Origin: Nitrospirota bacterium
Lineage (GTDB): Bacteria; Nitrospirota; Nitrospiria; Nitrospirales; Nitrospiraceae
Direction of reading: 5' to 3'
DNA length: 64,000 bases
Assembly: GCA_040755395.1 (NCBI GenBank)
Contig: JBFMAX010000003.1
Location: 124,001-188,000, forward strand
The notes beneath the pieces were generated by a model, which was not told the DNA's origin, did no database searches, and saw only the letters and a program-made list of their open reading frames with translations. The stretch's first letter is position 1. Every line of letters starts with the position of its first letter. Of the stretch, positions 33,747 to 53,745 are shown one piece after another. Position numbers and translations under genes: made by a program.

Positions 33747-33836
33747 GATAAAAGGGGTCGGATAAAAGGGGTCGGGAGTCTTTGCAAGGCCACGGCTTGA
33801 TTAATATAAAGACTCCCGACCCCTCTCTCTTCGCCG
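33747..33836. repeat. REP-like inverted repeat, copy A
   Basis: The left arm AAAGGGGTCGGGAGTCTTT (33765-33783) faces the right arm AAAGACTCCCGACCCCT (33808-33824), with a preceding extra GATAAAAGGGGTCG unit. The same element is at 41049-41113 (both arms) and 48214-48250 (left arm only). Copies A and B bracket the type I restriction module. Such arms are typical of REP-type palindromes mobilised by RAYT (TnpA-REP) transposases; no RAYT gene is in this window. Confidence 0.8.
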
Positions 33837-33984: not shown

Positions 33985-34218
33985 ATGAGGAAACAGAACG
34001 GAATACCTCGCCTGGTTCGTGAGTTGCGGAATCGCCTCGGGCTCAGCCAGGAGAAGTTCGCGGCCAGGCTGGGCGTGACCTCTCCTACCATCAACCGATG
34101 GGAGAACGCCCGGGCGAAACCGTCACCGCTGGCGGTTGCTCGGATACGCGAGATCGCCGTGGGCCTGGGGCAAGACGGCGCTAGGCTGCTGGAGCGCTAC
34201 TTCCCGGAAGAAACGTAG
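33985..34218 (+). CDS. XRE-family HTH regulator
   Basis: A 77-residue DNA-binding protein, nearly all one HTH_3 domain: RNRLGLSQEKFAARLGVTSP, then TINRWENARAKPSPLA. It has an excellent ribosome site (GAGGAGG, 5 nt before ATG). It is the first gene of the hsd operon and overlaps nothing; hsdR starts 10 nt after its stop. A likely role is timing control of restriction gene expression. Confidence 0.88.
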   Translation: MRKQNGIPRLVRELRNRLGLSQEKFAARLGVTSPTINRWENARAKPSPLAVARIREIAVGLGQDGARLLERYFPEET

Positions 34219-34228
34219 GAGATCGCCC

Positions 34229-36565
34229 GTGCGCGAGATCAACGAAGACGAAGCCGAGCTCTTGATCGAAGCCCACCTCCGGGAGCGTGGCTGGAACGTC
34301 ACCGACTTCACGGTCACCCGCAAGCGCTGGCGCGATCACCTGGACGGCGAGGAAGCCGACCGCGTCTTCCTGCACAACGGTCGCCTCGTTGCCATCCTTG
34401 AGGCGAAGAAACCGGGGAAGGACCTCTGGGCCGCCCTGGACCAGGCCAAGGGCTATGCGCGGGCCTACAAGCGCAACACCGGCCACGACGTCCCGCTCCT
34501 CTTCGCGAGCGACGGGAAGGTCTTCCTTCGGCAGAACCTGAAGGCCAACACGCTGCCGGAACGAATCTCGAACTTCCCGACACCCGCGGAATTCGGAGAG
34601 TTCTTCCGGCCGCAGGCGGTGGAACTCCATGGCGCCCTTCGGGACTATCAGCGGGTCGCCGTGTCGCAGGTGCTGGGTGCCGTCCAGGCGGGACGTCGGC
34701 GGATGTATCTCCAGATGGCTACTGGTACGGGCAAGACCATCACCGCCGCCGGTGTCATCGCCAAACTCTGGGCCGTGGGGCTCATCCGGAGAACGCTCTT
34801 CCTAGTGGACCGCGACGCCCTGGCGGTCCAGACGGTGAAGAAGTTCAAGACGCACCTGGGAGACAACTTCAGCATCGAGCGGGCCACGGGAGCGAACGAG
34901 GACAAGCACCGCGACGTCCTGGTGACCACCATCCAGCACATGGCAGTCCGCAACAAGTATCTCGCTTATGCCCCGGACCACTTCAACCTCGTGATCCTGG
35001 ACGAATGCCATCGGTCCTACTTCGGGGACTGGTATGGCGTGCTCGATCATTTCGCCAAGGGCGGCGCGATCCTTCTGGGGTTGACCGCGACGCCAGCAGA
35101 CAAGGAGACGGTTAACACGGACCGGTTCTTCACCGACCCAGGGCAGTACCGAGGGCCGATCTACCGATACACCATCCGCCAGGGCGAGACCAATCCTGAA
35201 GTGCCGGAGTGGGAGCGGCTGGCGGCGTGCATCCACCACAAGTTCCACACGAACGTGGACCTCGAAGGCGTCCACGACATGGGATTCGACTTTGAGCCCG
35301 ATCAGCTTGGGCGCGCCGTGGACGTGCCGCAACGGAATCGACTCATCGCTGAGAAGTACTTTGAGATCCTTGGCACACGCCAACCTGTGAAGACCATTGT
35401 CTTCGCTGCCTCCATAGCTCACGCGAAAAACCTGCGCTATGCCCTCATTGAGAAGTACAACGAGCTGAACAGCCTCCCGCCGAACGATGCATCGGCGGAG
35501 AAGTTCATCGTCGCAGTCCACAACGAAATGGCGGCCGCAAGCACCTTGATTGAGGAATTCCAGAAGGTCACGGGTCCCGAAGAGCGGAAGAGCATCATTG
35601 ATCAAGCACACAAAGACCCCAACATGGACCCGCGCCCGATTGTCCTCGTGGGTGTCGGAATGCTGGACACTGGGATCGACGCGCCGGACGTGGAGGTCCT
35701 GCTCATGGCGCGTCCCACAAAATCGAAAGTCCTCTACGTTCAAATGAAAGGGCGAGGCACCCGCAAGTGTCGGGAGACAGGCAAGGAGATCTATAAGCTC
35801 GTGGACTTTGTGGACATCACGAGGCTTGAGCCGGCCATCACGAACGACACGCCCGGCGTCGAGGATGAGCCGGTCGAGCAGGAAGAGGAGGAAATCATCG
35901 AGCGCGAGCGCGGCGAGGCCGGGGAGGCAGGCGAAGGCGGCGGTGCTGGGGGTGAAGAAGGCGGCAGCGAGCAGCAGATGGTCATCGCCGATGTCCCAGT
36001 TCACCTGGTCTTCTCGGAGACGATCTCCCCGGCCGTCCTAGAGGAGCTTCGCCGCCAGGTCGAGGCCCAGCTGAAGGGAGGCATGGAGCGCGAAGGATTG
36101 AAGCAGCGGTTCGCGCAGACTATCCTTTGCTGGCGGTACTTCAAGGGGGCCACGGCGCCGGACCACTCATTCCTGGCGACGATGGGGTTCGACCTCTCCG
36201 CCCTTCGAGACCTCTATGGAGAGCCGGAAGCGACCCTGGAGGACTTCATCGCCGTAGCCACAGGCGAGGCCGACTTCGATACGCTCCAACGAAGGAGGGA
36301 GTTTGACAAGTGGGCGCTCGGGAAGAGCCTTGGCCGCGAGCAACGGGAAATGGTCCTGATGGTCTGCGACTTCAAGCGTGCCAACCCCGATATCGTACCT
36401 GAGCAGATCATCCGCAGCCAGTGGCTCGACCAGGCCGGAGGGATCATGCGCGTCAAAAGACTCTTCGGCAGCCTCGACAAGCTGATGACCCTGGCGGAGG
36501 AGGCCCTGCTGCTTTCTGCGGGTACACCCGCCGACTCGGAGGAAAAGCATGCCTCGAACCCCTGA
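34229..36565 (+). CDS. hsdR: Type I restriction enzyme, R (endonuclease/translocase) subunit
   Basis: A 778-residue motor and nuclease subunit. GTG 34229 is chosen because AGGAG lies 7 nt upstream; the open frame extends into the regulator gene. The N-terminal PD-(D/E)xK nuclease shows ADRVFLHNGRLVAILEAKKP (Asp and ExK). The SF2 helicase core has Walker A ATGTGKT, DECH, GLTATP and a C-terminal helicase half (VLVGVGMLDTGIDAPD, QMKGRGTR). An acidic, Gly/Glu-rich linker (about 555-590) precedes an EcoEI-type C-terminal region. It overlaps hsdM by 17 nt. Confidence 0.95.
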   Translation: MREINEDEAELLIEAHLRERGWNVTDFTVTRKRWRDHLDGEEADRVFLHNGRLVAILEAKKPGKDLWAALDQAKGYARAYKRNTGHDVPLLFASDGKVFLRQNLKANTLPERISNFPTPAEFGEFFRPQAVELHGALRDYQRVAVSQVLGAVQAGRRRMYLQMATGTGKTITAAGVIAKLWAVGLIRRTLFLVDRDALAVQTVKKFKTHLGDNFSIERATGANEDKHRDVLVTTIQHMAVRNKYLAYAPDHFNLVILDECHRSYFGDWYGVLDHFAKGGAILLGLTATPADKETVNTDRFFTDPGQYRGPIYRYTIRQGETNPEVPEWERLAACIHHKFHTNVDLEGVHDMGFDFEPDQLGRAVDVPQRNRLIAEKYFEILGTRQPVKTIVFAASIAHAKNLRYALIEKYNELNSLPPNDASAEKFIVAVHNEMAAASTLIEEFQKVTGPEERKSIIDQAHKDPNMDPRPIVLVGVGMLDTGIDAPDVEVLLMARPTKSKVLYVQMKGRGTRKCRETGKEIYKLVDFVDITRLEPAITNDTPGVEDEPVEQEEEEIIERERGEAGEAGEGGGAGGEEGGSEQQMVIADVPVHLVFSETISPAVLEELRRQVEAQLKGGMEREGLKQRFAQTILCWRYFKGATAPDHSFLATMGFDLSALRDLYGEPEATLEDFIAVATGEADFDTLQRRREFDKWALGKSLGREQREMVLMVCDFKRANPDIVPEQIIRSQWLDQAGGIMRVKRLFGSLDKLMTLAEEALLLSAGTPADSEEKHASNP

Positions 36566-38192
36566 CTTCAATCAGTTCGGCGAAGAGCTTTGGGAGATCG
36601 CCAACGTCTTCCGGGACGATGCCCTCCATGCCACGGAACGCCTGGAGACGTTCAGCCTTTTCCTGTTCTTGAAGCTCTGGGATGAACTCGAGACCGAGCA
36701 CGAGGAGGCGACGGGCAAGAAGCAGCCTGACAACAAACAGCTGATCCCCGAGGTCTATCGCTTTCACAACTGGGCCGCCGACCCCGATGCCTACGCGAAG
36801 GAGAAAGGTTTTGAGGACTCCGTGGATTTCTGTCGCAAGATGTTCGCAGAGCTGGCAACCCGCCACTCCTCTCACCCCACGGCGCGCGACGTGCGACGGC
36901 TGTTCAAGGACTCTCGTCTCTTACTGCGGTACTCGACGACCATCCGGCAGCTCACCTCGCGCCTCAGGGACCTGAATCTCCAAGAGATCATGTCCCGCGG
37001 CCTCGGAGAGGGTGAGCGGTACGACATCTTCGGAAGGGCCTACGAGTACCTGCTCCAGCAGTTCGGGCAGAACAAGGAGTTCGCGGAGTACTTCACGCCA
37101 CGGCACATCGTCGACCGGATGGTTCAGATCGTGGACCCCGAGATCGGCGAGACCGTTTACGACCCGGCATGTGGTACGGGCGGGTTCATCGTGCGTGCGT
37201 TCGAACTCGTTCGGGACAAGATCGAGCGGAAACGAATCTCCTTTACGGACAAGGAACGCCTGATCCGGGATCTGAAAGAGAAGCACCTCATCGGCGTGGA
37301 GCATGTCCCCCTGGTGTTCAAACTGGCCTTGATGAACATGATCCTGCACAAGGATGGCTCCAGCCTGCTCCAAAACGACGACAGCCTATCGAACAAGGCC
37401 CAGGACCTCCACAAAAACAAGTACGACGTCATTCTGGCGAATCCACCTTTCGGCCCGACCAAGCAGGAGCGGCTCGCCCAGTTCGAATACCACATCAAGC
37501 TGTACGAGGCGCTCTTCATCCAGCACATGATGAGCGCCCTGCGGCCGGGCGGGCGCGCGGCGGTCGTGCTGAAGGAAGGCCTCCTCTTCGATTCGAAGAA
37601 GATGCTCCGCAGGATTTGCCGCAAGCTGGTGGAGCAGTTCGAGGTCCTCGCAGTCATCAGCCTGCCGAACGGCGTCTTCAACCCCTACAGCGGCGCCAAG
37701 ACCAGCGTCGTCGTCTTCCGCAAGCCCCTTGGCAAGGACGACGTCCGCACGTCGAAGGCCTGGTTCTATCGGGTCGACAGCGACGGCCGCGATCTGGGAG
37801 CCACTCGCAGGCCGCTGCCGGACTTCGAGACGGACGGCGACCTCGATCATATGGTCTCCCTCTGGCCGTACACCTGGCGCCACGAAAAGGGCGGTGGGGT
37901 TCGGGCGATCTTGAAGTCCGACCGCCTGAAGGACTTCGAGAGTGAGAAGTCCTGGTGGGCGCACATCGAGGACATCCGTAAGACCGACTACAACCTCACG
38001 GCCGGCCGTTACTGCCCGCATCAGGCGCAGGCCGTCCAACACGAGAAGCCGGAGGTCCTCATCAACCGCCTCCTGGACCTCGAGGAGGAGATCAAGACGG
38101 ACCTCCAGGACCTCTTGACGCTCGTGACGGTGCCGACGTCGGTTGAGGGTCTTAAGAGATCGGTCCGCTTTGAGAAGCAGCCCGGGGAGTGA
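36549..38192 (+). CDS. hsdM: Type I restriction-modification, N6-adenine methyltransferase subunit
   Basis: A 547-residue methylation subunit. The N-terminal HsdM_N helical domain (about 5-150) precedes the SAM-dependent methyltransferase fold with motif I DPACGTGGF and the catalytic NPPF, typical of gamma-class N6-adenine methylation. The C-terminal part includes GAKTSVVVFRKPLG and a final coiled region (LLDLEEEIKTDLQDLLTLVT). It partners with HsdS for target recognition. Confidence 0.96.
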   Translation: MPRTPDFNQFGEELWEIANVFRDDALHATERLETFSLFLFLKLWDELETEHEEATGKKQPDNKQLIPEVYRFHNWAADPDAYAKEKGFEDSVDFCRKMFAELATRHSSHPTARDVRRLFKDSRLLLRYSTTIRQLTSRLRDLNLQEIMSRGLGEGERYDIFGRAYEYLLQQFGQNKEFAEYFTPRHIVDRMVQIVDPEIGETVYDPACGTGGFIVRAFELVRDKIERKRISFTDKERLIRDLKEKHLIGVEHVPLVFKLALMNMILHKDGSSLLQNDDSLSNKAQDLHKNKYDVILANPPFGPTKQERLAQFEYHIKLYEALFIQHMMSALRPGGRAAVVLKEGLLFDSKKMLRRICRKLVEQFEVLAVISLPNGVFNPYSGAKTSVVVFRKPLGKDDVRTSKAWFYRVDSDGRDLGATRRPLPDFETDGDLDHMVSLWPYTWRHEKGGGVRAILKSDRLKDFESEKSWWAHIEDIRKTDYNLTAGRYCPHQAQAVQHEKPEVLINRLLDLEEEIKTDLQDLLTLVTVPTSVEGLKRSVRFEKQPGE

Positions 38193-38193
38193 C

Positions 38194-38514
38194 ATGGCCA
38201 CGGCAACGCAGCGAATCCGAGAACATGTCGGGAATCCCAGGGCCCATGTCTGGGCGTTCTGCTTCACGTCCATAGCCCGGGAGCGAGCCAGGCAGTCCGA
38301 TCCTGCCTCCGCATCCAAGAGCAACCACCAGCGCCTTGGCGATGCGTGGAAAAGCTACCTGATGCCGCTCTGGCGTTTCCGGTCTAGGCTAGCTCTTCCA
38401 GGGACGACGTGGCTTCTCTGTGAGGACGGCGTGGCTAGATACCTCAAGGCGGGCGACACACTGCGGCTCCTCGATCAGGCCAAGAACGTCCTCGGGTGGG
38501 AGGATGGCAGATGA
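38194..38514 (+). CDS. 106-aa protein inside the hsd operon, unknown
   Basis: ATG 38194 follows the hsdM stop after 1 nt and has GGGGAGTG upstream; the stop overlaps the hsdS start as ATGA. The tight packing implies co-translation with hsdM and hsdS. The product is basic and compact (HVWAFCFTSIARERARQSDP; LALPGTTWLLCEDGVARYLK), with no membrane segment or catalytic motif that I recognise. A small accessory or anti-restriction/assembly role is only a positional guess. Confidence 0.65.
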   Translation: MATATQRIREHVGNPRAHVWAFCFTSIARERARQSDPASASKSNHQRLGDAWKSYLMPLWRFRSRLALPGTTWLLCEDGVARYLKAGDTLRLLDQAKNVLGWEDGR

Positions 38515-40184
38515 AGCTGACGTCCAATCTTAAGGTGCGGGGGTGGAGAAAGGATGCGTTGGGACGCTACATCCAGCTTTCCAACGGCAAAGGAATTACA
38601 GCGAAGCAGATGGGACCCGACAAACTGATCCCAGTGTATGGATCTAGCAGCATAATAGGTTACGCGGATGAACCGCTCATTTTCTCGGACACCATTGTGA
38701 TTGGTCGCGTCGGCGCCTGTGGGTCAGTTCAAGTCGCTAAGGCGCCGTGCTGGGTAAGCGACAATGCGATGTATGTCAGCAACTTGCGACGTGAAATCGA
38801 CTTCGAGTTCCTGTTCTATCTGCTCGATTACCTGCAGTTGGGGCGTCTCGCTAGTCGCACAATGCAACCTAGCCTTCCGCAGGGTCCAATCTTGGAGCAC
38901 GAATTCCTGCTTCCTCCCCTCCCAGTCCAGGAGCGGATCGTCCAGATCCTCCAGAAGGCGGATGAGATTCGCCGCAAACGACGGGAGGCGCTTGAACTCG
39001 CGGACAAGATTCTGCCAGCCATTTATAAAGAGGCATTCGGCGATCCAATAGGTCAAAATTCGACGTTTCCCAAGGCGCGGCTCGGGGATTGCGCCGATAT
39101 CAGACGTGGCATTTCTAAAAGGCCCACGCCGAAGGGAACTGTGCCGATTGTTCGCATAAAGAACCTCACTCTCTCGGGCCTTGACCTTTCATGTTTCGAA
39201 AGGGTAGAGGCAAACGAACAAGAAGTCGCACGAGCACAACTCGCTGAAGGGGACATTGTTTTCTCCCCGTTGAACGGTAGTATCCATCACCTTGCCAAAT
39301 CCGATGTCTTCCACGCGCCAGTCGGGGGCAATATTTGGGTTTTGGATTCAAACCTATGTGCATTTAGAGCTAGGCCGGAGATTATACGTCCCACGTTCCT
39401 GGCCACCTGGCTTTCGCTTCCCGAGGTTCTGGGCCATCTTCGAACGAAGTTGGCAGTTCGCACCAGTGGAGGCCAGTGGTTACTGAAGAACACGACGCTA
39501 GCCTCCATTGAGATTCCACTGCCTTCGCTGTCTCAACAAGATTATTTCGTCACACAAGCGCAGCAGCTACTTCAGGCTAAAAGAGGCTTGGCAAGGGCTT
39601 CCAGCGACTCGACTGCTGCGTTTTCGAGCCTGCTTTCTCGCGCCTTCACCGGAGAGCTGACCGCCGAATGGGAAGCAGCCAACGCGGAGTGGATTGCCGC
39701 CCAGCAGGCGCTCCATGAGCGCGTGCCGCGGCTAGTGGTTCTCGCCCTGCTCTCGGAGAAGGTGAAACGTACGACTCGGACAGCGGCCCAAGTCCTGGTG
39801 ACGGCACTCATGAAGTACGCCTTCCTCCTGCAGATGGAGGGCAACGGCGGGCGCAGGAGGATCTACCACTTCGTGCCCTACCACTACGGTCCCTTCGCCA
39901 AGGAACTCTACACCGACCTCCAGTCGCTCCAGGAAGAGGGCCTGGTGCGCGTGGATGACGACTCGGAAGAGGACAAGACCAAGATCACGCTGGTCGATCG
40001 GGCCAAGGCCGACGAGGCGCTCGCCGCGCTGCCGGATGACCTGCAGGAGGACGCGGCGACGATCATCGAGATCTACGGCGACCTCGATCACAACGCTCTG
40101 CTGAAGACCGTCTACGAGAAATATCCCGCCTACGCCAAGAAGAGCCGCCTCCGGCGAGGGCAAGGACGACAATCCCCGAGCTAA
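38511..40184 (+). CDS. hsdS: Type I specificity subunit fused to a SocA/Panacea-like domain
   Basis: A 557-residue protein. Residues 1-~400 are HsdS: TRD1 (about 15-140), a central coiled helix (LPPLPVQERIVQILQKADEI), TRD2 (about 185-345) and a second helix (IPLPSLSQQDYFVTQAQQLL). A normal HsdS would stop near FTGELTAEW. Here about 130 more residues follow (RTAAQVLVTALMKYAFLLQM; YHFVPYHYGPFAKELYTDLQ) with the aromatic YGPFSKEL-type signature of YwgA/SocA/Panacea-type domains, known as antitoxin or chaperone-linked modules. ATG 38511 has GGGAGG upstream and overlaps the preceding stop. TRD DNA is lower in GC than hsdM and the C-terminal extension. Confidence 0.85.
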   Translation: MKLTSNLKVRGWRKDALGRYIQLSNGKGITAKQMGPDKLIPVYGSSSIIGYADEPLIFSDTIVIGRVGACGSVQVAKAPCWVSDNAMYVSNLRREIDFEFLFYLLDYLQLGRLASRTMQPSLPQGPILEHEFLLPPLPVQERIVQILQKADEIRRKRREALELADKILPAIYKEAFGDPIGQNSTFPKARLGDCADIRRGISKRPTPKGTVPIVRIKNLTLSGLDLSCFERVEANEQEVARAQLAEGDIVFSPLNGSIHHLAKSDVFHAPVGGNIWVLDSNLCAFRARPEIIRPTFLATWLSLPEVLGHLRTKLAVRTSGGQWLLKNTTLASIEIPLPSLSQQDYFVTQAQQLLQAKRGLARASSDSTAAFSSLLSRAFTGELTAEWEAANAEWIAAQQALHERVPRLVVLALLSEKVKRTTRTAAQVLVTALMKYAFLLQMEGNGGRRRIYHFVPYHYGPFAKELYTDLQSLQEEGLVRVDDDSEEDKTKITLVDRAKADEALAALPDDLQEDAATIIEIYGDLDHNALLKTVYEKYPAYAKKSRLRRGQGRQSPS

Positions 40185-42453: not shown

Positions 42454-42683
42454 GGGGGGATACTGGAGGTCAGGTCGGATGCCGATCGCCTCGGAGAAGC
42501 CACATGTTGAGGTCATTGTTCACGTCACATGCGGGGAGAAGCCAATTTCTACAGGAATCGGGACACAACCCAATCAACATAAGACTGATGGAAAGCCTTC
42601 GCGACAACAGTGTTCGGCGACAAATCCCCTACAGGAAAACTGGTTTGGTTAAATACGACGAGGTTTATCCGAGAGTGAGCTAG

Positions 42684-42829
42684 CCCATCATCAACGACAG
42701 CGACCGCGTGCTGGCGAAGCACTACGGCTTCACGGACGAGGAACTCGACTTCATCATCAACTACGACACCTGCCTGCCGGCAGGCAGGTCAAGTACCGCA
42801 TGGGCCAGGATGCGGGGGAAGAAGTATGA
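42684..42829 (+). pseudogene. C-terminal remnant of an Eco57I-like DNA methyltransferase, copy 1
   Basis: The frame reads PIINDSDRVLAKHYGFTDEE and then LDFIINYD, typical of the extreme C-terminus of Eco57I/PglX-type adenine methyltransferases, where it continues as IKYRMGQ. The continuation is present but displaced by a 20-bp palindrome (42769-42788). Removing exactly those 20 bp restores NYDIKYRMGQDAGEEV and a stop at 42827. No upstream catalytic part remains; the preceding 230 nt have no gene. Confidence 0.7.
42768..42789. repeat. Perfect palindrome inserted in the methyltransferase tail
   Basis: CCTGCCTGCC followed at once by GGCAGGCAGG (42769-42788), extended to 22 bp by flanking A and T. 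It splits the Ile codon of NYD-I-KYRMG. The clean insertion into an otherwise intact conserved motif shows that this palindrome moves as a unit. Confidence 0.85.
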
Positions 42830-43154: not shown

Positions 43155-43534
43155 GGATCAAGCTAGACGAAAATCTTCCCCTCAGGCTCGTTCGCATTCT
43201 GGCCGAACTTGGCCATGAGACCGATACCGTTCCGCAGGAAGGCTTGGCCGGCCAGGATGACGCTCACGTCTGGCAAGCGGCACAAACGGTCGGTCGCTTT
43301 TTCATCACGCAGGATTTGGACTTTTCGGACGTGCGCCGATTTGCGCCAGGCACCCACCACGGCCTTCTACTTGTGCGCTTACGGGATCCCGGCCGCAATG
43401 CGCTCGTGAGTCGGGTTCGAAGCCTCTTTCAAACAGAAAACGTTGAGGCATGGAAGGGATGCTTTGTCGTGGCGACCGAACACAAGGTTCGGGTCCGGTC
43501 GCCCAAGCAACAGAACGATCCGAACAAAGGCTAG
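43151..43534 (+). CDS. DUF5615 PIN-like toxin
   Basis: A 127-residue protein of the DUF5615 (Mut7-C/PIN-like) family, the usual partner of DUF433. The N-terminal strand IKLDENLPLRL carries the first acidic residue; later motifs are GQDDAHVWQAA and FFITQDLDFSDVR, the acidic cluster expected for metal-dependent RNase activity. The start is GTG 43151, coupled to the antitoxin stop. It appears intact. Confidence 0.87.
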   Translation: MRIKLDENLPLRLVRILAELGHETDTVPQEGLAGQDDAHVWQAAQTVGRFFITQDLDFSDVRRFAPGTHHGLLLVRLRDPGRNALVSRVRSLFQTENVEAWKGCFVVATEHKVRVRSPKQQNDPNKG

Positions 43535-43663
43535 CCCATCATCAACGACATCGACCGCGTGCTGGCGAAGCACTACGGCTTCACGGACGAGGAACTCGAC
43601 TTCATCATTCACCGCGGCATCAATTGCTAAATGGGCCAGGATACAGGCGAGGGTGAGGAGTGA
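43535..43663 (+). pseudogene. C-terminal remnant of an Eco57I-like methyltransferase, copy 2
   Basis: It begins directly after the toxin stop codon with PIINDIDRVLAKHYGFTDEE and continues to a variant tail with a TAA (43628-43630) inside, then MGQDTGEGEE before TGA at 43661. The sequence is 98-99% identical to copy 1 over 79 bp, then diverges. Its last stop overlaps the start of a darT remnant, so the tail and darT were probably neighbours in the donor locus. Confidence 0.7.
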
Positions 43664-44024: not shown

Positions 44025-44801
44025 ATGCGAGGCATACTCGACCAACGCACGCTAGAAACGCTGCTCACGCCCAGCGAGCTCAGCGCGGTCGCGGAGACGC
44101 TCCGCGCGGGGAGCTGGTGGGGACTCCCGGTGCCAGGCGATCCGGCCTGGGCGCTCACCGTGGACGAGGGACCGTGCGATCGGTTGCTGGCGCTGGGCAT
44201 CCACTATTTCACCAGCCGGTATCCGGCTGCGGAGCCGGCCCTCTATGCGATTGCCGCGCAAGTGCTGCACGAGCTGGCGACCGGCTGGGCAGCGGGCTAT
44301 CCCGTCGAATCGGATCCCCGCTATCAGCGGGCGTGGGCCTGGCTGTTCGCGCTGGCTGGTGGGTATCCCGCGCCGCCAGAGGCGGAAGGAAGGATCGCGT
44401 TCACGCTGCCGCTGCATCCAGAGACGCACGAGCCTGATGTGCCTGGTGGCTCCGTCGCGTTCACCCGCTGCGCCGTGGAAGTCCTGGGCCGGCTCCTCTT
44501 CGAGAGCGAGGCCTCGGCGCAGGGCCTGGCGGAGGAGTATCTCGCTGAGCATGCGGCGAACCCGTTAGCAGTGCGGGCGGCCACGATCTTTCGCCAGGTG
44601 CAGCGCTGGCCAGCTCAGAACGCGAGTGCGGCATCCGTGCGCTGTTTCGACTGTGGCGCGGGGAAGCTGGACCACTGGTACACGAGCGCGCGCGGCGGCT
44701 ACCATCTCAGTCCCGCGTGTTTCGAGGCCCGGGCAGCCAAGGGCCGGGCACGGCTCGCAGACACGGCCGGCCCAGGGGACGGCGACACGGCACCGGCCTA
44801 G
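44025..44801 (+). CDS. Protein of unknown function (258 aa)
   Basis: A soluble, Ala/Glu-rich protein of 258 residues from ATG 44025 (no strong ribosome site). It is mostly helical, with a C-terminal segment bearing two Cys pairs or singles (RCFDCGAGKLDHWY ... PACFEARAAKGR) that could bind zinc. I recognise no family. It sits in the debris zone; the 3' end abuts a TnpB remnant, so the last residues (TAGPGDGDTAPA) may come from the insertion junction. Confidence 0.6.
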   Translation: MRGILDQRTLETLLTPSELSAVAETLRAGSWWGLPVPGDPAWALTVDEGPCDRLLALGIHYFTSRYPAAEPALYAIAAQVLHELATGWAAGYPVESDPRYQRAWAWLFALAGGYPAPPEAEGRIAFTLPLHPETHEPDVPGGSVAFTRCAVEVLGRLLFESEASAQGLAEEYLAEHAANPLAVRAATIFRQVQRWPAQNASAASVRCFDCGAGKLDHWYTSARGGYHLSPACFEARAAKGRARLADTAGPGDGDTAPA

Positions 44802-44821
44802 ACGGAGCCACACGGCCTGCG

Positions 44822-45154
44822 AGACTGACAGCGGGGCGGCTCGTCGCTGTTCCGCCGAGGGACACAAGCCGCACCTGCCCAGTCTGCGGGCGGGTGTCGG
44901 CAGACAACCGGCCCACCCAGGCCCGGTTTGTCTGTGTGTCCTGCGGCGTGGAAGCGCACGCCGACCTGGTTGGTGCCATCAACATCCTCTCCCGCAGGAG
45001 GCACAAAGTGCGGGACGAAGGGCAGGACACGTTGCACGCTTGCAGCGGGATGGCGCAAGCCGTCAGCCCGGATGGCCTGTGGATCGAACCTCAGGGGAGG
45101 TCGGAAGCAGGAACCCGCCGAAGCGACTCAGGCGTCGCCGGATGCGGCCCCTGA
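44822..45154 (+). pseudogene. tnpB: TnpB C-terminal remnant (IS200/IS605 family)
   Basis: This frame encodes the end of TnpB: SRTCPVCGRVSADNRPTQAR and FVCVSCGVEAHADLVGAINI, the zinc-ribbon and the third RuvC motif (HADLVGAIN, with Asp), followed by a variable tail. The first two RuvC acidic motifs and the N-terminal half are absent, so the nuclease is inactive. It is followed at once by the IS605-type right end (45166-45197). In intact elements this 3' end also templates the omega RNA. Confidence 0.82.
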
Positions 45155-45165
45155 GCGCCGTAGGA

Positions 45166-45197
45166 ATCCCCGTCCTTCAGGGCGGGGAGGATGTCAA
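45166..45197 (+). ncRNA. IS605-type right end / omega-RNA 3' hairpin
   Basis: GAATCCCCGTCCTTCAGGGC then GGGGAGGATGTCAA is the characteristic right-end hairpin (CCCCGTCC-TTCA-GGGCGGGG) of many IS200/IS605 elements and forms the 3' scaffold of the RNA guide used by TnpB. The sequence right after GTCAA would be the guide/target flank. With TnpB truncated, it is a fossil or an orphan guide scaffold. Confidence 0.65.
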
Positions 45198-45256
45198 AGC
45201 TAACAACTCGCTCCAGCCGCGCCGCCGTCGGCGGCGCGGCTGAACTCAGTGCGGCT

Positions 45257-45784
45257 ATGCAGCGCCTGAACCGCATTCGGCCTGACCAAGGGCCGCCAGT
45301 TGCCGGGCTTTGCGTTCCAGGTGACCTGTACTGGGTGCTGCGGGACCCAGCCCCGCTTGCCGGAATGAGACTCCCTGGTCCGACTTGGCCCTGGCAAGCC
45401 ATTCATAAGAGTGGCTTCTCCGATCTAGTCTCCCTGCATCCGTACAGCCTCGATCCAGCACCGCTGACAGTGATCTTTAGGGCTCAGCTTGAAGACCTGG
45501 TACACGGTGGCCCGCCGGGCTGTCCAGATCGGGAACTGAGACTCATCCGAGAGGCGGTGCGTGCCACAATCCAATCGCTTCACAAAAAGCGCGGGGTTGT
45601 TGTCCATTGCCACGGCGGCCGGGGGCGCACTGGCACGGTTCTCGGCTGCGTCCTGCGTGAACTCGATTATGACGGCGAGGACGTGGTCTCGTATCTGAAC
45701 GAAATTCACATAGCGCGAGGCAAGTCGGGGTGGCCTGAATCCACGTGGCAGGGTGATGTTGTTCGTCGGTGGCCCGAGGTCTAG
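45257..45784 (+). CDS. Dual-specificity/tyrosine protein phosphatase
   Basis: A 175-residue protein (ATG 45257; the frame is open to 45191, but those bases belong to the IS right end). The signature VVVHCHGGRGRTGTVLG is the HCx5R P-loop of cysteine phosphatases (nucleophile Cys, binding Arg). An upstream Asp-containing loop (DLVSLHPYSLDPAP) may be the general acid region. The N-terminus may have been replaced by the insertion element. Substrate unknown. Confidence 0.75.
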   Translation: MQRLNRIRPDQGPPVAGLCVPGDLYWVLRDPAPLAGMRLPGPTWPWQAIHKSGFSDLVSLHPYSLDPAPLTVIFRAQLEDLVHGGPPGCPDRELRLIREAVRATIQSLHKKRGVVVHCHGGRGRTGTVLGCVLRELDYDGEDVVSYLNEIHIARGKSGWPESTWQGDVVRRWPEV

Positions 45785-47074: not shown

Positions 47075-47743
47075 ATGAATACAGTCCCGCTCAAACTTCG
47101 AGACGGACACCTCTTCCTCGAACTGAACGGTGAGTTCTGGCTTCTTGATACCGGAGCGCCAACCAGCTTTGGTGCCTCCGGCAGTCTTTCGCTGGCTGGC
47201 AAGCGGTTCAGCCTCGGTGCCACCTATCTCGGACTTACGGCTTCGACGCTTACGCGCTTCGTCGGCGTCCCGTGTGCCGGGCTTCTCGGCGCAGACGTGT
47301 TGGGGTGTTTTGATTATATCTTTGATGTCGCCGGCGGCACGCTCACCGTGTCGACGAACGAGTTGGCGCACAGCGGCCAGACCGTGCCGTTGTCCGAGTG
47401 GATGGGGATCCCGATCCTCACGGCGCGGATTACCGGTCGTGAGTATCGGATGTTCTTCGATACCGGCGCGCAGATTTCGTACTGGCAGGATGACGCGCTA
47501 GCGGCCTTTCCTGCCGCTGGCCGCGTCACCGATTTCTACCCTGGCATTGGCCAGTTCCAGACCGAGACCTATCAGGTGGAGATTGCGCTCGGAGGCGTCG
47601 TGTTGACGCTTCGCTGCGGTCGGTTGCCCGGCTTGCTTGGCGGGACCTTGATGATGGCCGACACCCAGGGCATCGTCGGCAACGAGATCCTCTGTGGTCG
47701 TCCCGTGGGCTACTTTCCGCGCCGCCACGCGCTAGTCTTCTGA
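47075..47743 (+). CDS. Double retropepsin-like aspartyl protease
   Basis: A 222-residue protein with two D-T-G-A motifs: LLDTGAPTSFG at about residues 24-34 and FFDTGAQISYW at about 128-138. Each lies in a beta-rich half with a following hydrophobic-Gly motif (CAGLLGADVLG and TQGIVGNEILC), the layout of an aspartic protease with both lobes in one chain. There is no signal peptide. Start ATG 47075 has a weak ribosome site. Function and substrate are unknown; it could self-process or act on a neighbouring product. Confidence 0.72.
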   Translation: MNTVPLKLRDGHLFLELNGEFWLLDTGAPTSFGASGSLSLAGKRFSLGATYLGLTASTLTRFVGVPCAGLLGADVLGCFDYIFDVAGGTLTVSTNELAHSGQTVPLSEWMGIPILTARITGREYRMFFDTGAQISYWQDDALAAFPAAGRVTDFYPGIGQFQTETYQVEIALGGVVLTLRCGRLPGLLGGTLMMADTQGIVGNEILCGRPVGYFPRRHALVF

Positions 47744-48441: not shown

Positions 48442-50025
48442 TCAGAACGTATACACCAGCAGCGCGTTGGTCTGGAAGCGAACATACACGGTGGCGATCT
48501 GAGTGAAGTCCGCCAGCACTTTGAACAGGAACCGCTGCGGGAGCTTCATCGTGTATGAGGCGTGCGCGTCGCCGCCGACCCGAAAGACCGGGGACTTCAC
48601 GGCCTCGTCGATGTATTGGATCGCCGGGCCGGCCGCCATATAGAGTTCGCCCTTGTTCTCGGTGATGTAGGTGGCCGCCAGACGCGGGATCTGGTTCACG
48701 AAGACGCTGGGGCTGAAATAGCCGCCCGGCAGCGGCTCGACCGCGCTGGGCCGGAAGCCGGACTGGTCCTCGGCGTAGTGGGTGAGGTAGAAGAGGTATT
48801 CCGCGTAGACGTCCCAGCGGTCGTCCTGCCAGAACGGCACCGCGATCTTGGCGTCGAGCCCCACCTGGCCGTTGTTGTCGAGGTTTTCGGCCGAGACCCA
48901 GCCCACGAACGGCGTCACATCAACCCGCGCCTGGCCGGTTTCGAAGGTGAGGTCCGTGTAAAAGAGTGTCGAACGGGCGAGACCGAGGATGGGACCGGTC
49001 TTGCGCGATCCCACCAGGGCGGCGAACGAGTCGTAGCGGTATTCGCGCTTCACGCCCGGCCGGACCGTGAACGCCGCGGCCTCGTGCGTGAACTCGAATT
49101 TGTAGGCCAGCCCGTCGCCTCTGGTCACCCCGTGATACTCCAGGAGGGCGTCCAGGCGGTTCGTCGGGTTGAACCGAAGCTGGTTCCCGAGCGACAGATA
49201 CCCGCCCGACCGGTTCTCCGATGAATCCCAGAAGTGCTCGGCCCCCACTTCCAGCGTGCTCGTGGTGAACGGCGTCAAGTCCATCTTCCCGCGTGAACCG
49301 AGGCGGAGCCCGTACAGTTCGAAGGGCCGTTCAGGCTGGACGAGGACGCCCGCCGAGGCTTCCACCGTCGGCTCCCGGCCTTTCATCATCTCGCGGCGCA
49401 GCACGGTCATGTCGCCGGGTTCGCGCCGGGAATAGTCGCGGGCCAGGTTGCTGTAATAGAGCGCCTTGTCGTTGTCGCCCAGCCAGGCGTAGGCCTTCGC
49501 CAAGCCGCGGTGGGCCTCGACGTTGCGGGGCTCCTTCGCCAGCACCTTTTCATACTGGACGATGGCCTCCTGACTGGTCTCCTTGCGCTTCGCCAGATGG
49601 GCCGCGTACTTGAGGCGCATGCGCGGGTCATCCTTCCGTTTTAGCCCCATCCGGTAATACTTCATCATGTCTTTCTCGCGGTAGGCGTAGCGCGACCATT
49701 CGAGTGCCTGCGCCTGCTTGAACGCGATCTCCGGATCGTCCTCCCACTTGTCGAGATACCGGTCGAATTGCTCGATCGCTTTGTCCTTCAGGCCCTGCTT
49801 CTCATACGCAAGACCCAGGCTGCGCATCGCCTCCCGGTTGTCCGGATTTTTCTCCACCACTTTCTCGAACGCCTCGATCGCCGCCTTGTAGTTGCCGATC
49901 TCCATGTTCGCCCGCCCGCGGGACATGTACCAGGACTCGGTGAAGTCGGCGGCCCAGACGGTCGCGCTCCCGAAGACTGCGCACAGCAGGCCTGCGGCAG
50001 AAAGCATCTTTCTCAACCACATCAT
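48442..50025 (-). CDS. TPR and beta-barrel outer-membrane protein, BcsC-like
   Basis: A 527-residue exported protein; the signal peptide ends at ATVWA. Residues about 28-200 contain TPRs (RANMEIGNYKAAIEAFEKVV; AHRGLAKAYAWLGDNDKALY). The rest alternates as outer-membrane strands (SGGYLSLGNQLRFNPTNRLD) ending in FQTNALLVYTF with a C-terminal Phe, the barrel-insertion signal. This is the plan of BcsC/PgaA-type exopolysaccharide export porins, with a shorter TPR part than E. coli BcsC. ATG 50025 has GAGGA upstream and lies 10 nt after the synthase stop, so the genes are coupled. Confidence 0.85.
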   Translation of the reverse strand: MMWLRKMLSAAGLLCAVFGSATVWAADFTESWYMSRGRANMEIGNYKAAIEAFEKVVEKNPDNREAMRSLGLAYEKQGLKDKAIEQFDRYLDKWEDDPEIAFKQAQALEWSRYAYREKDMMKYYRMGLKRKDDPRMRLKYAAHLAKRKETSQEAIVQYEKVLAKEPRNVEAHRGLAKAYAWLGDNDKALYYSNLARDYSRREPGDMTVLRREMMKGREPTVEASAGVLVQPERPFELYGLRLGSRGKMDLTPFTTSTLEVGAEHFWDSSENRSGGYLSLGNQLRFNPTNRLDALLEYHGVTRGDGLAYKFEFTHEAAAFTVRPGVKREYRYDSFAALVGSRKTGPILGLARSTLFYTDLTFETGQARVDVTPFVGWVSAENLDNNGQVGLDAKIAVPFWQDDRWDVYAEYLFYLTHYAEDQSGFRPSAVEPLPGGYFSPSVFVNQIPRLAATYITENKGELYMAAGPAIQYIDEAVKSPVFRVGGDAHASYTMKLPQRFLFKVLADFTQIATVYVRFQTNALLVYTF

Positions 50026-50035
50026 CGTCGTATCC

Positions 50036-53000
50036 TCATGAATGCGAATGCTGGACGGCGATCGCGAGCGCCGATTGCGGCTCAGGCTCTCGCGAGGTCT
50101 GCGCGTCGGCCTGCAAGCCGACACGGCGGAAAAGAATGAGGACGCGGCGCTGGTACACGGGCCGGAACGGCGCGTCGATGTGCGACGGGTTGACGAGTCG
50201 CCACGGTTCCTCCGAAAGAATCCGGCGGCCCAGACACCACACGCCGGCGCCGCGCGGGGACCAGTCGCGGACCAGCACCCGCCTCCGGTGCGATCCGATA
50301 CGGACGTGCGCGAGCCGCCAGGTCTTGCGGCGAACGGTTTGACGGCGAGTCCGTCTGGCTGGTCGAAAGCCGAGCACGATCCCGCGAAAGAAATGCCAGG
50401 CCATGAGCAGATTACTCCGCACACGGTCTTCGTGTGCGTTCCGCCAGGTGTTCGGGTCGGCGAACAGATTCAAGATCAATGCCCGGCGGGTCTCCTGGTT
50501 CGCCGCCAGAATGGCGAGGCCGCATCGGTATCGGCGGCCGACCCGTTCGTGGTAGACGACCCGGCATCGGCACGTGACGGGGCGCCGGTCGTGCAGTGTG
50601 AGTTCGACATAGGGCGGGATCGGGTCACTCGACGGCGTGATGAATGAGATGCCGGCCAGGCTCAGGTCTGCGGTCTGCCCATGAACGCTAAAGGTATCTG
50701 CCTGCAGCGTGAACGGCACGGATTTTCTGATCCGCTCCTCCGCGCGCCGTTGCGGTTTCTCCCAGGCGATCAGGAGACCGGCCAGCAGGAACAGCAGGTT
50801 CAGCGAAGCCCAACTCAGGTTGAAGAAATAGGCATCCTTTTCGATGCCGAAATAGAAGAACTCGGCCAAGCCCTTGCCGATGGCGATGACCGTCATGACG
50901 GTGGCGAGGAGGAGGCCTTTTGACGACCCCCAGTCGAAGGCCCGCCGGTCCGACGTGAGGCCCTTCGGCGTGACCTTGAAGCCAAGCCGTCTGGGGAGCA
51001 GCAGGTCGAACATGGATCGAAAGAGAGGGAAGCTGACCGGCATCTCATAGAGCGACGCCCAAAGGAGCCGGGGCCAGCCGGGCAAGAGCGCATAAGACAG
51101 CAACGGCAGGATGACGAGAAACGGAAGCAGGTAGGCGACCAGGATCGAAACGTCCGAGAAAATCGGATGGAGATGGAACAGCAGGTAGTAGAGCGGCGTG
51201 ATCCAGAAGACGACGCGCGCGGCGGGAAAGAAGAAGTAATAAAGGGAGGCGAAATAGCCCAGGCGCTGGCGCAGCGTCAATCCTCGGCAAAGGAGCGGGT
51301 TGTCCTTGAAAAAGATTTGCAGGCAGCCGAGCAGCCAGCGCCGCCGTTGGACGAGGTAGGAAGACAGGTTTTCCGCCGTCAGTCCGACGGCGAGATCCTT
51401 GTCCACGAACGCCGACCGCCACCCCTTGGCGTGGAGGTGTTGGCTGGTGTGAATGTCCTCGGTGATGCTCATCAGGTTGAAGCCGTTGATCTCGGCGATC
51501 GCGCTGCGCCGGAAGACCGCGCCGCTGCCGACGAAGAAGGCGCCGTTCCACGACGCGCGTCCGCCCTGAATGGCGTGGTTGAACAGATCCTGCTCGTTCG
51601 GAATCCGCGGCCCGGCGGAGAGCGCGCGCTGGTAAATGTCCTGATTGTAGAAGTGGTGGGGCGTCTGGACGAACGCCACCTTCGGGTCGGCGAAGAAGGG
51701 GACGGTCTCCTTGAGAAAGCTCGTGACCGGAATGTGGTCGGTATCGAACACGACCACCAGTTCGCCCAACGTGTGGGTCAACGCATGGTTCAGGTTGCCG
51801 GCCTTGGCATGCCGGCGAGGTCCCTTGAGATAAACCGCGCCGTAGTCGGCGGCCAGCTCGGCCACTTCCGGCCGGTGGCCGTCATCCAGGACGTAGAGGC
51901 GCTTGTTCGGATACTCGATCGCGCCGGCGCCGATGAGGGTCTTTTCGAGAATGTCGCACGACTCCGTGTAGATCGGAATGAAGATGTCCACGGACGGCGC
52001 GAAACCGGGCGGCGCCGGAGGAGGCGCGTGGCGCGGTTGTTTCCTCCCCAGTCCCACCTGCACCAGGAGCAGTACCACCGTCGAGAAGGCATAGAGTTCC
52101 GCTGCCCAGAGCGAGAGGCTGATGAACGGGCCGGCGGTCTCCACGAAGTTCAGCGTGTGGGTGAAACGCCACACGAGATAACGGCCGCACAGCGTCAAGC
52201 CGCAGACGAGAAACGCAAGCTTCAACAGCGGATGGTACCTGGCGACGAAGTAGAGGCCGATCGTCAGGAAGAACAGTTCCCAGGGGAAGTGGGCTGAGAA
52301 GCCTTTGAAGTCGAACGGCCGAAGAAAGCCGAGGAACTCGTCGTAGGTCCGTATGAGATGCAGCTCGAACGCCCGCCCGAACCAGAGCCAGTTGTGGAGA
52401 TAGTAGGGCGTGTCTTTGCCGGCGAGGGCCTTGTCGTGCAGCGTTCCGAGCTTCGTTTCGCTCAGGACTCGAGCGAGATCGTGGCCTTCCTGAACGGCGA
52501 GGGCCTGGACGGTTGCGTAGAGCGGCAGCCCTTCGAAGGCGGAGCGGGGCTCGCCGGTCACGGTGTACTGGTCGAAAAATTTCTTGCGCGCCTGCCATTC
52601 TTTCCAAAAGAAGGCCAGCATGTGGCGGCGGAGATCGGCTTCCGCACGGCGGCCGAACCAATTCGCGTCCACCGCCATCCGCCAGAACAACGGCACCGCA
52701 TCATAACTGAACTGGGCCGACGCGCCGGACTGCGGATGCTTCAGGAGCAGCTCACCGGTGCGCTTGTTGAGGTAGACGATCTCCGGCGGCAGCGGCAGGT
52801 TCTTCTCGAAGTAGAGCCACCTGAGGATCGCGTAGGAGCTCTCGATGAGCTGTCTCCACGGATGGCGCCGATCGAGGTTCGCGAAGACTTCGTACGCATA
52901 GGGTGCGAGATAGGCCATGTGGATCGTCGGATAGTCTTCCTGCGGCGCCCAGTTGCCGGCGGTCACGTAGGATCGTTGGCCGATCGTCAGGACTTCCGTC

Positions 53001-53470
53001 TTCCAGATCGCATCCAGAATCGCGAGGGCTTCTTGCTCGTAGGCCGGCTCGTCGAATCGCCGCGACGCCAGGATCAGCGCCAGCGCGATGTCGGTGTCGG
53101 CGTCCGTGGCGGAGTTGATCGAGAGGACCTTGCCTTTCCACTTCCAGGCAAAGAGTTTGTCGGGCCGGACCTGCAAGTTCTGTTTCGTCCATGTCCACAC
53201 GCTGGAAAAAGTCTGGCGGTCGTTCGACCACACGGCCCGCAGCATCGCATAGCTTTGGCCTTCCGAGGTCGTGATCCCGTTCTCGTCCAAGCTGATGACG
53301 CGGCCGTTCAGGATGTACTTCTGCTTGTAGAAGCTCCACAGCGCGGAAAGTTCGTCCAACTGCCGGATGTACAGATCGCTGGACGAGCGCGGGACATCGG
53401 CCAGTCCCGCAGCCGGCACCGCGAGCGTGAGGAGCAGCGCAAGGCTGCCTTGAGCGACGGAGGCGCGCAT
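50036..53470 (-). CDS. bcsA: Fused GH8 endoglucanase - cellulose synthase - PilZ protein (BcsZ-BcsA)
   Basis: One 1144-residue chain. The signal peptide is at 1-25. A GH8 domain (about 30-390) carries the BcsZ acid GITTSEGQSYAM (Glu), INSATDADTDIA (Asp) and FSYDAVPLFW. Several TM helices follow, then the GT2 catalytic loop (about 500-740) with VLDDGH, FDTDHIPV (DxD), GGRASWNGAFFVGSGAVFRR, TEDIHTSQHL and QRRRWLLGC. More TM helices precede a PilZ domain (RRAEERIRKS then DLSLAGISF), the c-di-GMP receptor that gates BcsA. A second PilZ-like motif (VRDWSPRGAGVW) is near the C-terminus. ATG 53470 has GGAG 5 nt upstream; ATG 53491 is an alternative. It likely makes and trims a beta-glucan. Confidence 0.88.
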   Translation of the reverse strand: MRASVAQGSLALLLTLAVPAAGLADVPRSSSDLYIRQLDELSALWSFYKQKYILNGRVISLDENGITTSEGQSYAMLRAVWSNDRQTFSSVWTWTKQNLQVRPDKLFAWKWKGKVLSINSATDADTDIALALILASRRFDEPAYEQEALAILDAIWKTEVLTIGQRSYVTAGNWAPQEDYPTIHMAYLAPYAYEVFANLDRRHPWRQLIESSYAILRWLYFEKNLPLPPEIVYLNKRTGELLLKHPQSGASAQFSYDAVPLFWRMAVDANWFGRRAEADLRRHMLAFFWKEWQARKKFFDQYTVTGEPRSAFEGLPLYATVQALAVQEGHDLARVLSETKLGTLHDKALAGKDTPYYLHNWLWFGRAFELHLIRTYDEFLGFLRPFDFKGFSAHFPWELFFLTIGLYFVARYHPLLKLAFLVCGLTLCGRYLVWRFTHTLNFVETAGPFISLSLWAAELYAFSTVVLLLVQVGLGRKQPRHAPPPAPPGFAPSVDIFIPIYTESCDILEKTLIGAGAIEYPNKRLYVLDDGHRPEVAELAADYGAVYLKGPRRHAKAGNLNHALTHTLGELVVVFDTDHIPVTSFLKETVPFFADPKVAFVQTPHHFYNQDIYQRALSAGPRIPNEQDLFNHAIQGGRASWNGAFFVGSGAVFRRSAIAEINGFNLMSITEDIHTSQHLHAKGWRSAFVDKDLAVGLTAENLSSYLVQRRRWLLGCLQIFFKDNPLLCRGLTLRQRLGYFASLYYFFFPAARVVFWITPLYYLLFHLHPIFSDVSILVAYLLPFLVILPLLSYALLPGWPRLLWASLYEMPVSFPLFRSMFDLLLPRRLGFKVTPKGLTSDRRAFDWGSSKGLLLATVMTVIAIGKGLAEFFYFGIEKDAYFFNLSWASLNLLFLLAGLLIAWEKPQRRAEERIRKSVPFTLQADTFSVHGQTADLSLAGISFITPSSDPIPPYVELTLHDRRPVTCRCRVVYHERVGRRYRCGLAILAANQETRRALILNLFADPNTWRNAHEDRVRSNLLMAWHFFRGIVLGFRPARRTRRQTVRRKTWRLAHVRIGSHRRRVLVRDWSPRGAGVWCLGRRILSEEPWRLVNPSHIDAPFRPVYQRRVLILFRRVGLQADAQTSREPEPQSALAIAVQHSHS

Positions 53471-53745
53471 GAGTCTCCAATACTGAGTCATAGTCGTAAC
53501 CTGTGTAACAACCAGAAGCCGGCGTGATTAGCGGGGGTGGAGCGGCGGGAGGGAACGCAGCAAGAAGGAATGTGATCGGCCGGTCGCTGACATGCCGAGG
53601 ATTAAAGCATATTCAGCGTGGAATCGGCAATGATGCTGAATTGCAGAGGCGCGTCCGCGGGGAGGAAAGAGACCGGGCACCTATTTTGATGGTCTTCTGA
53701 ATCCTGTGTGGGCAACGGTGTAATCACGGACGCTGGCACAGAGGA
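53471..53745. other. Upstream region of the synthase operon
   Basis: 275 nt without a gene, then the inverted-repeat element at 53746-53952. It should contain the bcs promoter on the minus strand; no consensus boxes or riboswitch-like structure is clear. Confidence 0.4.

Follow-up and report, generated by a model that had tools for sequence, protein, structure and literature searches.

In a 64,000-nucleotide stretch of a Nitrospirota genome (contig JBFMAX010000003.1, positions 124,001 to 188,000; hereafter called the window), one minus-strand gene at 50036..53470 encodes a GH8 endoglucanase, three transmembrane (TM) helices, a GT2 synthase, a PilZ domain and a second PilZ-like domain as a single polypeptide of 1144 amino acids, as judged from its frame, the Pfam and NCBIfam matches and motif alignment. 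We consider it likely, with a probability of roughly 0.7, that this fusion is a processive β-glucan synthase that is controlled by cyclic di-GMP (c-di-GMP), carries its own endoglucanase and apparently lacks BcsB. Its motifs and best matches suggest that the product is most likely cellulose, a β-glucan.

How are the parts of the fusion arranged? The minus-strand frame is open throughout from 53491 to 50036 (1151 residues; residue numbers refer to this frame, from ATG 53491). A second ATG at 53470 corresponds to M8 and is probably the likelier start, because the ribosome-binding-like sequence GGAG (53475..53478, minus strand) lies 4 nt upstream of it; the product from there has 1144 residues. 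The first segment, which extends to about A31 (53399..53470), resembles a signal peptide, with a hydropathy peak at residues 16–25. It is followed by the GH8 domain (residues 40–376; 52364..53374), which matches Pfam at residues 52–304 (E 1.3e-35), while residues 46–272 match GH8 cellulases in a PDB sequence search, the best being 1wzz and CelA. A linker (residues 377–403; 52283..52363), which reads DEFLGFLRPFD in the window, then leads to three membrane helices (residues 404–479; 52055..52282) and the cytoplasmic GT2 catalytic domain (residues 499–742; 51266..51997). The Pfam GT2/cellulose synthase match covers residues 499–793, and residues 409–951 match the E. coli and Rhodobacter BcsA sequences in the PDB, the best synthase entries being 7lby and 4hg6. 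Finally, C-terminal channel helices with an FKVTPK gating loop (residues 743–911; 50759..51265), identified by motif alignment, hydropathy and an AlphaFold2 (AF2) model, precede PilZ domain 1 (residues 912–1010; 50462..50758; Pfam match at 914–1006, E 4.2e-13) and the divergent second PilZ-like domain (residues 1045–1128; 50108..50359). In the AF2 model, the fold matches are BcsA entries, and BcsZ and CelA for the GH8 part, with TM-scores of about 0.75–0.80 normalised by target length. The Pfam and hydropathy results thereby bear out a preliminary description of the window, in which a GH8 domain is joined through membrane helices to GT2 and PilZ in one continuous frame.

Both catalytic sets appear intact, as that description had also stated. 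In an alignment of 23 full-length proteins, the GH8 residues E77, D130, D132, D134 and D264 are invariant, and so are the GT2 motifs D536-D537, D583xD585H, T677-E678-D679 and Q715xxR718W719, as well as the gating loop F838xVTxK843. In the PDB sequence alignment, E77 and D264 fall on the Glu and the Asp of CMCax and CelA that we take to be catalytic from general knowledge of the GH8 family. PilZ domain 1 carries the motifs RxxxR (R916xxxR920) and DxSxxG (D942xSxxG), and is supported by the AF2 model as well as the motif alignment.

The second PilZ-like domain is more divergent. A Pfam match to it was sought in the window protein and none was found. The AF2 model contains two C-terminal groups of β-strands (residues 926–994 and 1055–1128), and the second domain aligns with PilZ 1 by hhalign (P 1.9e-5, probability 77.5). 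Moreover, among the 23 full-length relatives R1050xxxR1054 is invariant and D1076xS1078xxG1081 is nearly invariant. These conserved motifs predict c-di-GMP binding by the PilZ-type domains. An unfused Nitrospiraceae synthase, L097, has two Pfam PilZ stretches, and therefore the second PilZ domain may have arisen before the fusion.

Averaged hydropathy places helices at about residues 404–420, 424–441 and 458–478 before the GT2 domain, and four more after it. In the alignment with E. coli BcsA, the three N-terminal helices correspond to TM2–TM4, while TM1 (150–168) has no counterpart; in place of the four N-terminal TM helices that characterise BcsA, the fusion thus has three and the signal-peptide-like segment. 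Since the number of helices between GH8 and the cytoplasmic GT2 domain is odd, the GH8 domain would lie in the periplasm, so that the two enzymes are predicted to be on opposite sides of the inner membrane. This topology agrees with the preliminary description in so far as that set synthesis on the cytoplasmic and the endoglucanase on the periplasmic side, one to one, the 1:1 stoichiometry following from their covalent linkage. Some unfused Nitrospiraceae synthases likewise have few N-terminal helices by hydropathy, and therefore the loss of TM1 may also predate the fusion.

The fusion recurs in many independent assemblies. Full-length relatives with 66–67% identity occur in other genera of the window's family, and a scan of contigs detected the fusion in metagenome-assembled genomes (MAGs) of the nitrifying Nitrospira and the complete genome of N. 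moscoviensis NSP M-1, in the soil myxobacteria of the genus Anaeromyxobacter, where the complete genome of A. oryzae is one of the carriers, and in two Fibrobacterota MAGs. It is present in 15 of 396 sampled Nitrospirota genomes and in 12 of 195 from Myxococcota, the phylum of A. oryzae. The labels of L024 (KSB1) and L038 (Myxococcaceae) are MAG labels, which may reflect misbinning and are not relied on here. In the first 60 relatives to be searched, every GH8 detected belonged to this fusion. The fused domains form one group in both the GT2 tree (support 100/100) and the GH8 tree (100/97), consistent with a single fusion event. Stand-alone BcsA-like synthases also exist in the window's relatives (L097, L098 and L006), and L097 and L098 lie in genomes that carry the fusion too (G004 and G027). 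In addition, a locus of genome G339 (L090, 9232-15263), which belongs to the same phylum and has no BcsB match, contains unfused GT2, TPR and GH8 genes together. In the GH8 tree, the GH8 of this locus branches as the sister of the fused domains, while the synthase of the locus is distant, on a long branch, and has no PilZ match. We do not claim this locus as the exact pre-fusion ancestor, because only the GH8 is close and the synthase is very distant.

The junction itself is conserved. Across six pairs of close relatives, the linker has a dN (nonsynonymous divergence) of about 0.00–0.02 against a dS (synonymous divergence) of 0.24–0.65, giving dN/dS well below 1, and its mean identity of 0.66 equals the conservation of the neighbouring domains; these values indicate that the linker and junction are under purifying selection. 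No stop or frameshift was found in the junction in the other assemblies inspected, and a junction artefact is ruled out by the intact frame in independent assemblies. In two assemblies the gene is interrupted past the junction: L025 (8103-8106) and L059 have a stop at the same place, near residue 743 of the fusion, and L032 has a frame break near residue 767. These may be sequencing errors or pseudogenes. Since independently assembled genomes from three or more phyla share this architecture—two complete chromosomes among them—and since the clades are single and well supported and purifying selection acts across the junction, the chance that the fusion reflects a misassembly, an error of gene prediction or a recent accident is practically negligible, as the preliminary description had argued for the last of these.

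The linker also bears on whether the polypeptide stays whole. If it were cleaved after synthesis, the GH8 domain would act as a free periplasmic BcsZ and the fusion would merely coordinate expression. Sequence alone leaves room for such processing, and free, even unrelated, cellulases suffice in E. coli (PMC11379886). However, the linker is short and matches the domains it adjoins in conservation, and the three membrane helices and the missing equivalent of BcsA TM1 fit a permanent membrane arrangement, which makes cleavage very improbable.

Does the fusion operate with BcsB? The BcsB family PF03170 was not found above the cut-off in any of the 15 Nitrospirota fusion genomes, the window's own included, or in any of the 12 Myxococcota fusion genomes, although the positive controls were detected in every search. 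One Nitrospirota fusion genome, G168, gives a 19-bit match under the cut-off. The idea that BcsB is hidden elsewhere in these 27 genomes was accordingly rejected. By contrast, PF03170 was found in 17 of 20 Nitrospirota genomes with a separate GH8. Each of the two Fibrobacterota fusion MAGs does encode BcsB, on contigs other than that of the fusion; in those of these BcsB loci that were retrieved, the GT2 sequences group with E. coli BcsA. In type I and type II operons, bcsB stands beside bcsA, whereas no gene lies between the fusion and its partner.

Catalysis in the known systems depends on BcsB (PMC11379886), and the parts of BcsB that it needs are the TM anchor and the amphipathic helix (PMC6740014). 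As BcsA TM1 is missing and BcsB was not found, we hypothesize that the linker and the first helix probably stabilise the synthase in place of BcsB. A different use of the same region is that GH8 is chiefly structural, a periplasmic platform instead of BcsB, with catalysis being secondary. It occupies the place of BcsA TM1 and runs straight into the first helix, and the fusion genomes lack a BcsB match, as such a platform would lead one to expect. A purely structural role would not, however, need the catalytic residues to be invariant over three phyla, and we consider it improbable.

The gene downstream completes the proposed system. It encodes a putative BcsC-like exporter of 527 residues (48442..50025, minus strand), suggested by profile and fold matches and by its conserved position, with a signal peptide, a short TPR array and a C-terminal β-barrel. 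A ribosome-binding-like GAGGA (50033..50037, minus strand) overlaps the stop codon of the fusion, and the gene starts 10 bp past that stop; because of this spacing, the two genes are predicted to form a co-transcribed two-gene operon. The partner is kept beside the fusion, with about 59–71% identity over the aligned full-length Nitrospirota-type copies and about 31% identity of the barrel in Anaeromyxobacter and Fibrobacterota. Its best fold match, at a low TM-score, is E. coli BcsC (9b8a), a protein of more than twice its length (1157 versus 527 residues). The BCSC_C (PF05420) match of its homologue in N. moscoviensis has an E of 1.5e-4, and those in Fibrobacterota, at 3.2e-5 and 4.1e-7, are over the cut-off.

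Based on these features, we propose the following mechanism. First, the signal peptide would direct export of the N-terminal GH8 domain into the periplasm. Second, c-di-GMP binding would open the gating loop, and the growing chain would be extruded through the synthase's own channel. Third, the tethered GH8 domain would locally cut the chains that jam or miss the exporter. Finally, the chain would exit through the co-transcribed short BcsC-like TPR/β-barrel protein. The trimming or clearing role of GH8 is suggested by analogy with BcsZ. In E. coli, the hydrolytic activity of BcsZ is needed for secretion: catalytic mutants fail, and unrelated cellulases restore it (PMC11379886). No interaction between BcsZ and BcsC was detected there, and the role proposed for BcsZ is the cutting of chains that escape or jam (PMC11379886). 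In its most specific form, our proposal is tentative, at somewhat less than even odds: a BcsB-independent, self-contained cellulose synthase, in which the attached endoglucanase and the linker and helix would take the role of BcsB, with two PilZ-type gates and one short BcsC-like exporter, as a two-gene system common to Nitrospira, Anaeromyxobacter and some Fibrobacterota.

Several observations weigh against our main reading of the fusion as a c-di-GMP-controlled synthase with its own endoglucanase. The contrast in BcsB between the Nitrospirota genomes follows lineage and counts genomes rather than independent events, and a very divergent BcsB may escape PF03170. The BCSC_C match of the window's partner is weak (E 0.007). 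The full-length AF2 model is only moderate (mean predicted local distance difference test score, pLDDT, 73.6; predicted TM-score, pTM, 0.56) and cannot place GH8 over the channel exit, because its prediction is poor in the linker and in part of the GT core. In Salmonella, BcsZ lowers cellulose output (PMC5070118), and therefore the role of the cellulase differs between systems. Two further points concern the polymer. The fusion scores 509 bits with the NCBIfam CelA model (TIGR03030), below the curated cut-off of 699, and 98 bits with that of BcsZ; because of the former score, the synthase half is filed as BcsA-like by sequence rather than as a TIGR03030 equivalog. In addition, the FFCGS motif of the compared BcsB-partnered synthases is FF(V/A)GSGA in all of the fusions.

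These last two points would also fit a system in which the same architecture and mechanism served another β-glucan, for example a mixed-linkage one, with a GH8 domain to match. The absence of a BcsB match points the same way, and the GH8 family, as the fold matches show, also includes lichenases, xylanases and chitosanases. The best matches of the two halves are nevertheless the cellulose synthases and cellulases named above, and DxDH, TED, QxxRW and FxVTxK are all retained. We therefore regard a different polymer as unlikely, though as the most probable of the alternatives, and prefer cellulose as the product.

How does the fusion relate to known systems? The canonical Bcs systems (E. coli type II and Komagataeibacter type I) likewise encode a GT2-PilZ synthase, a GH8 enzyme and a TPR/β-barrel exporter together, with the same catalytic and c-di-GMP motifs. 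There, however, BcsA, BcsB, BcsZ and BcsC are separate, and BcsZ is a soluble periplasmic protein, whereas here the BcsZ part forms the N-terminal domain within the frame of the synthase and most fusion genomes have no BcsB match. Unlike the canonical systems, the fusion also has a second PilZ-like domain, no TM1 equivalent and the shorter, 527-residue exporter. The clostridial CcsA-CcsZ system reportedly also pairs a synthase with a dedicated endoglucanase, but as separate genes and with another hydrolase family. In the G339 locus, GT2, TPR and GH8 stand together without a BcsB match, as in the fusion genomes, but as three separate genes. The preliminary description, which mentioned neither the BcsC-like partner nor the second PilZ-like domain nor the apparent lack of BcsB, had taken BcsZ to be a separate protein in known bcs operons. 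This is not always so, since Zymomonas is known to have BcsZ fused to BcsC as BcsZC (PMC7112194). The BcsZC fusion and the BcsAB fusions (Zymomonas, and also acetic acid bacteria and Acidobacteriales) likewise join neighbouring bcs subunits (PMC7112194, PMC9693552); in the present fusion, by contrast, BcsZ is joined to BcsA, across the inner membrane. The BcsB-less "type IV" system of cyanobacteria (XcsA, the HlyD-like XcsB and the endoglucanase XcsC) similarly combines a PilZ-bearing synthase with an endoglucanase (PMC12430437), but as separate proteins with an HlyD-like partner, where the present system is fused and has a BcsC-like exporter. A search of the open-access literature, with subscription papers, preprints and domain-architecture databases outside its range, found no description of a BcsZ-BcsA fusion. 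As BcsAB and BcsZC fusions and BcsB-less systems are already known, we file the BcsZ-BcsA fusion as a new variant among them.

The window has several other features. A dispersed 44-bp repeat lies at 33761, 41049 and 48222 (77–91% identity to the reference copy); it has a partly inverted partner, with further positions at 33806 and 41088, and occupies three places in the window. A 90-bp direct repeat (42679-42768 and 43530-43619) is 93% identical at a distance of 851 bp. On the plus strand, the genes at 34136-40184 look, by eye from their translations, like a type I restriction-modification set (R, M and S); a TnpB/Cas12f-like TNB zinc-ribbon fragment at 44717-45154 (PF07282, E 1.5e-14) is apparently a transposon remnant; 45191-45784 encodes a dual-specificity-type phosphatase with an HCx5R-like motif (PF22785, PF22784, PF13350); and the 222-residue product of 47075-47743 contains the motif DTGA twice, has no match in Pfam and may be an aspartic protease with two half-sites.

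The reason why cellulases accompany cellulose synthases has been described as unknown in the plant and tunicate systems (PMC11379886). With synthase and cellulase as one molecule, catalytic point mutations in a single gene could uncouple trimming from synthesis while the stoichiometry stays fixed. Should BcsB prove to be truly absent, the fusion would also offer a natural system in which to examine the contribution of BcsB to catalysis, and a system of two genes may be handy for engineering. Nitrospira rank among the major nitrite oxidisers in the biofilms and flocs of wastewater, and therefore the matrix polymer made by the fusion system may bear on floc structure.

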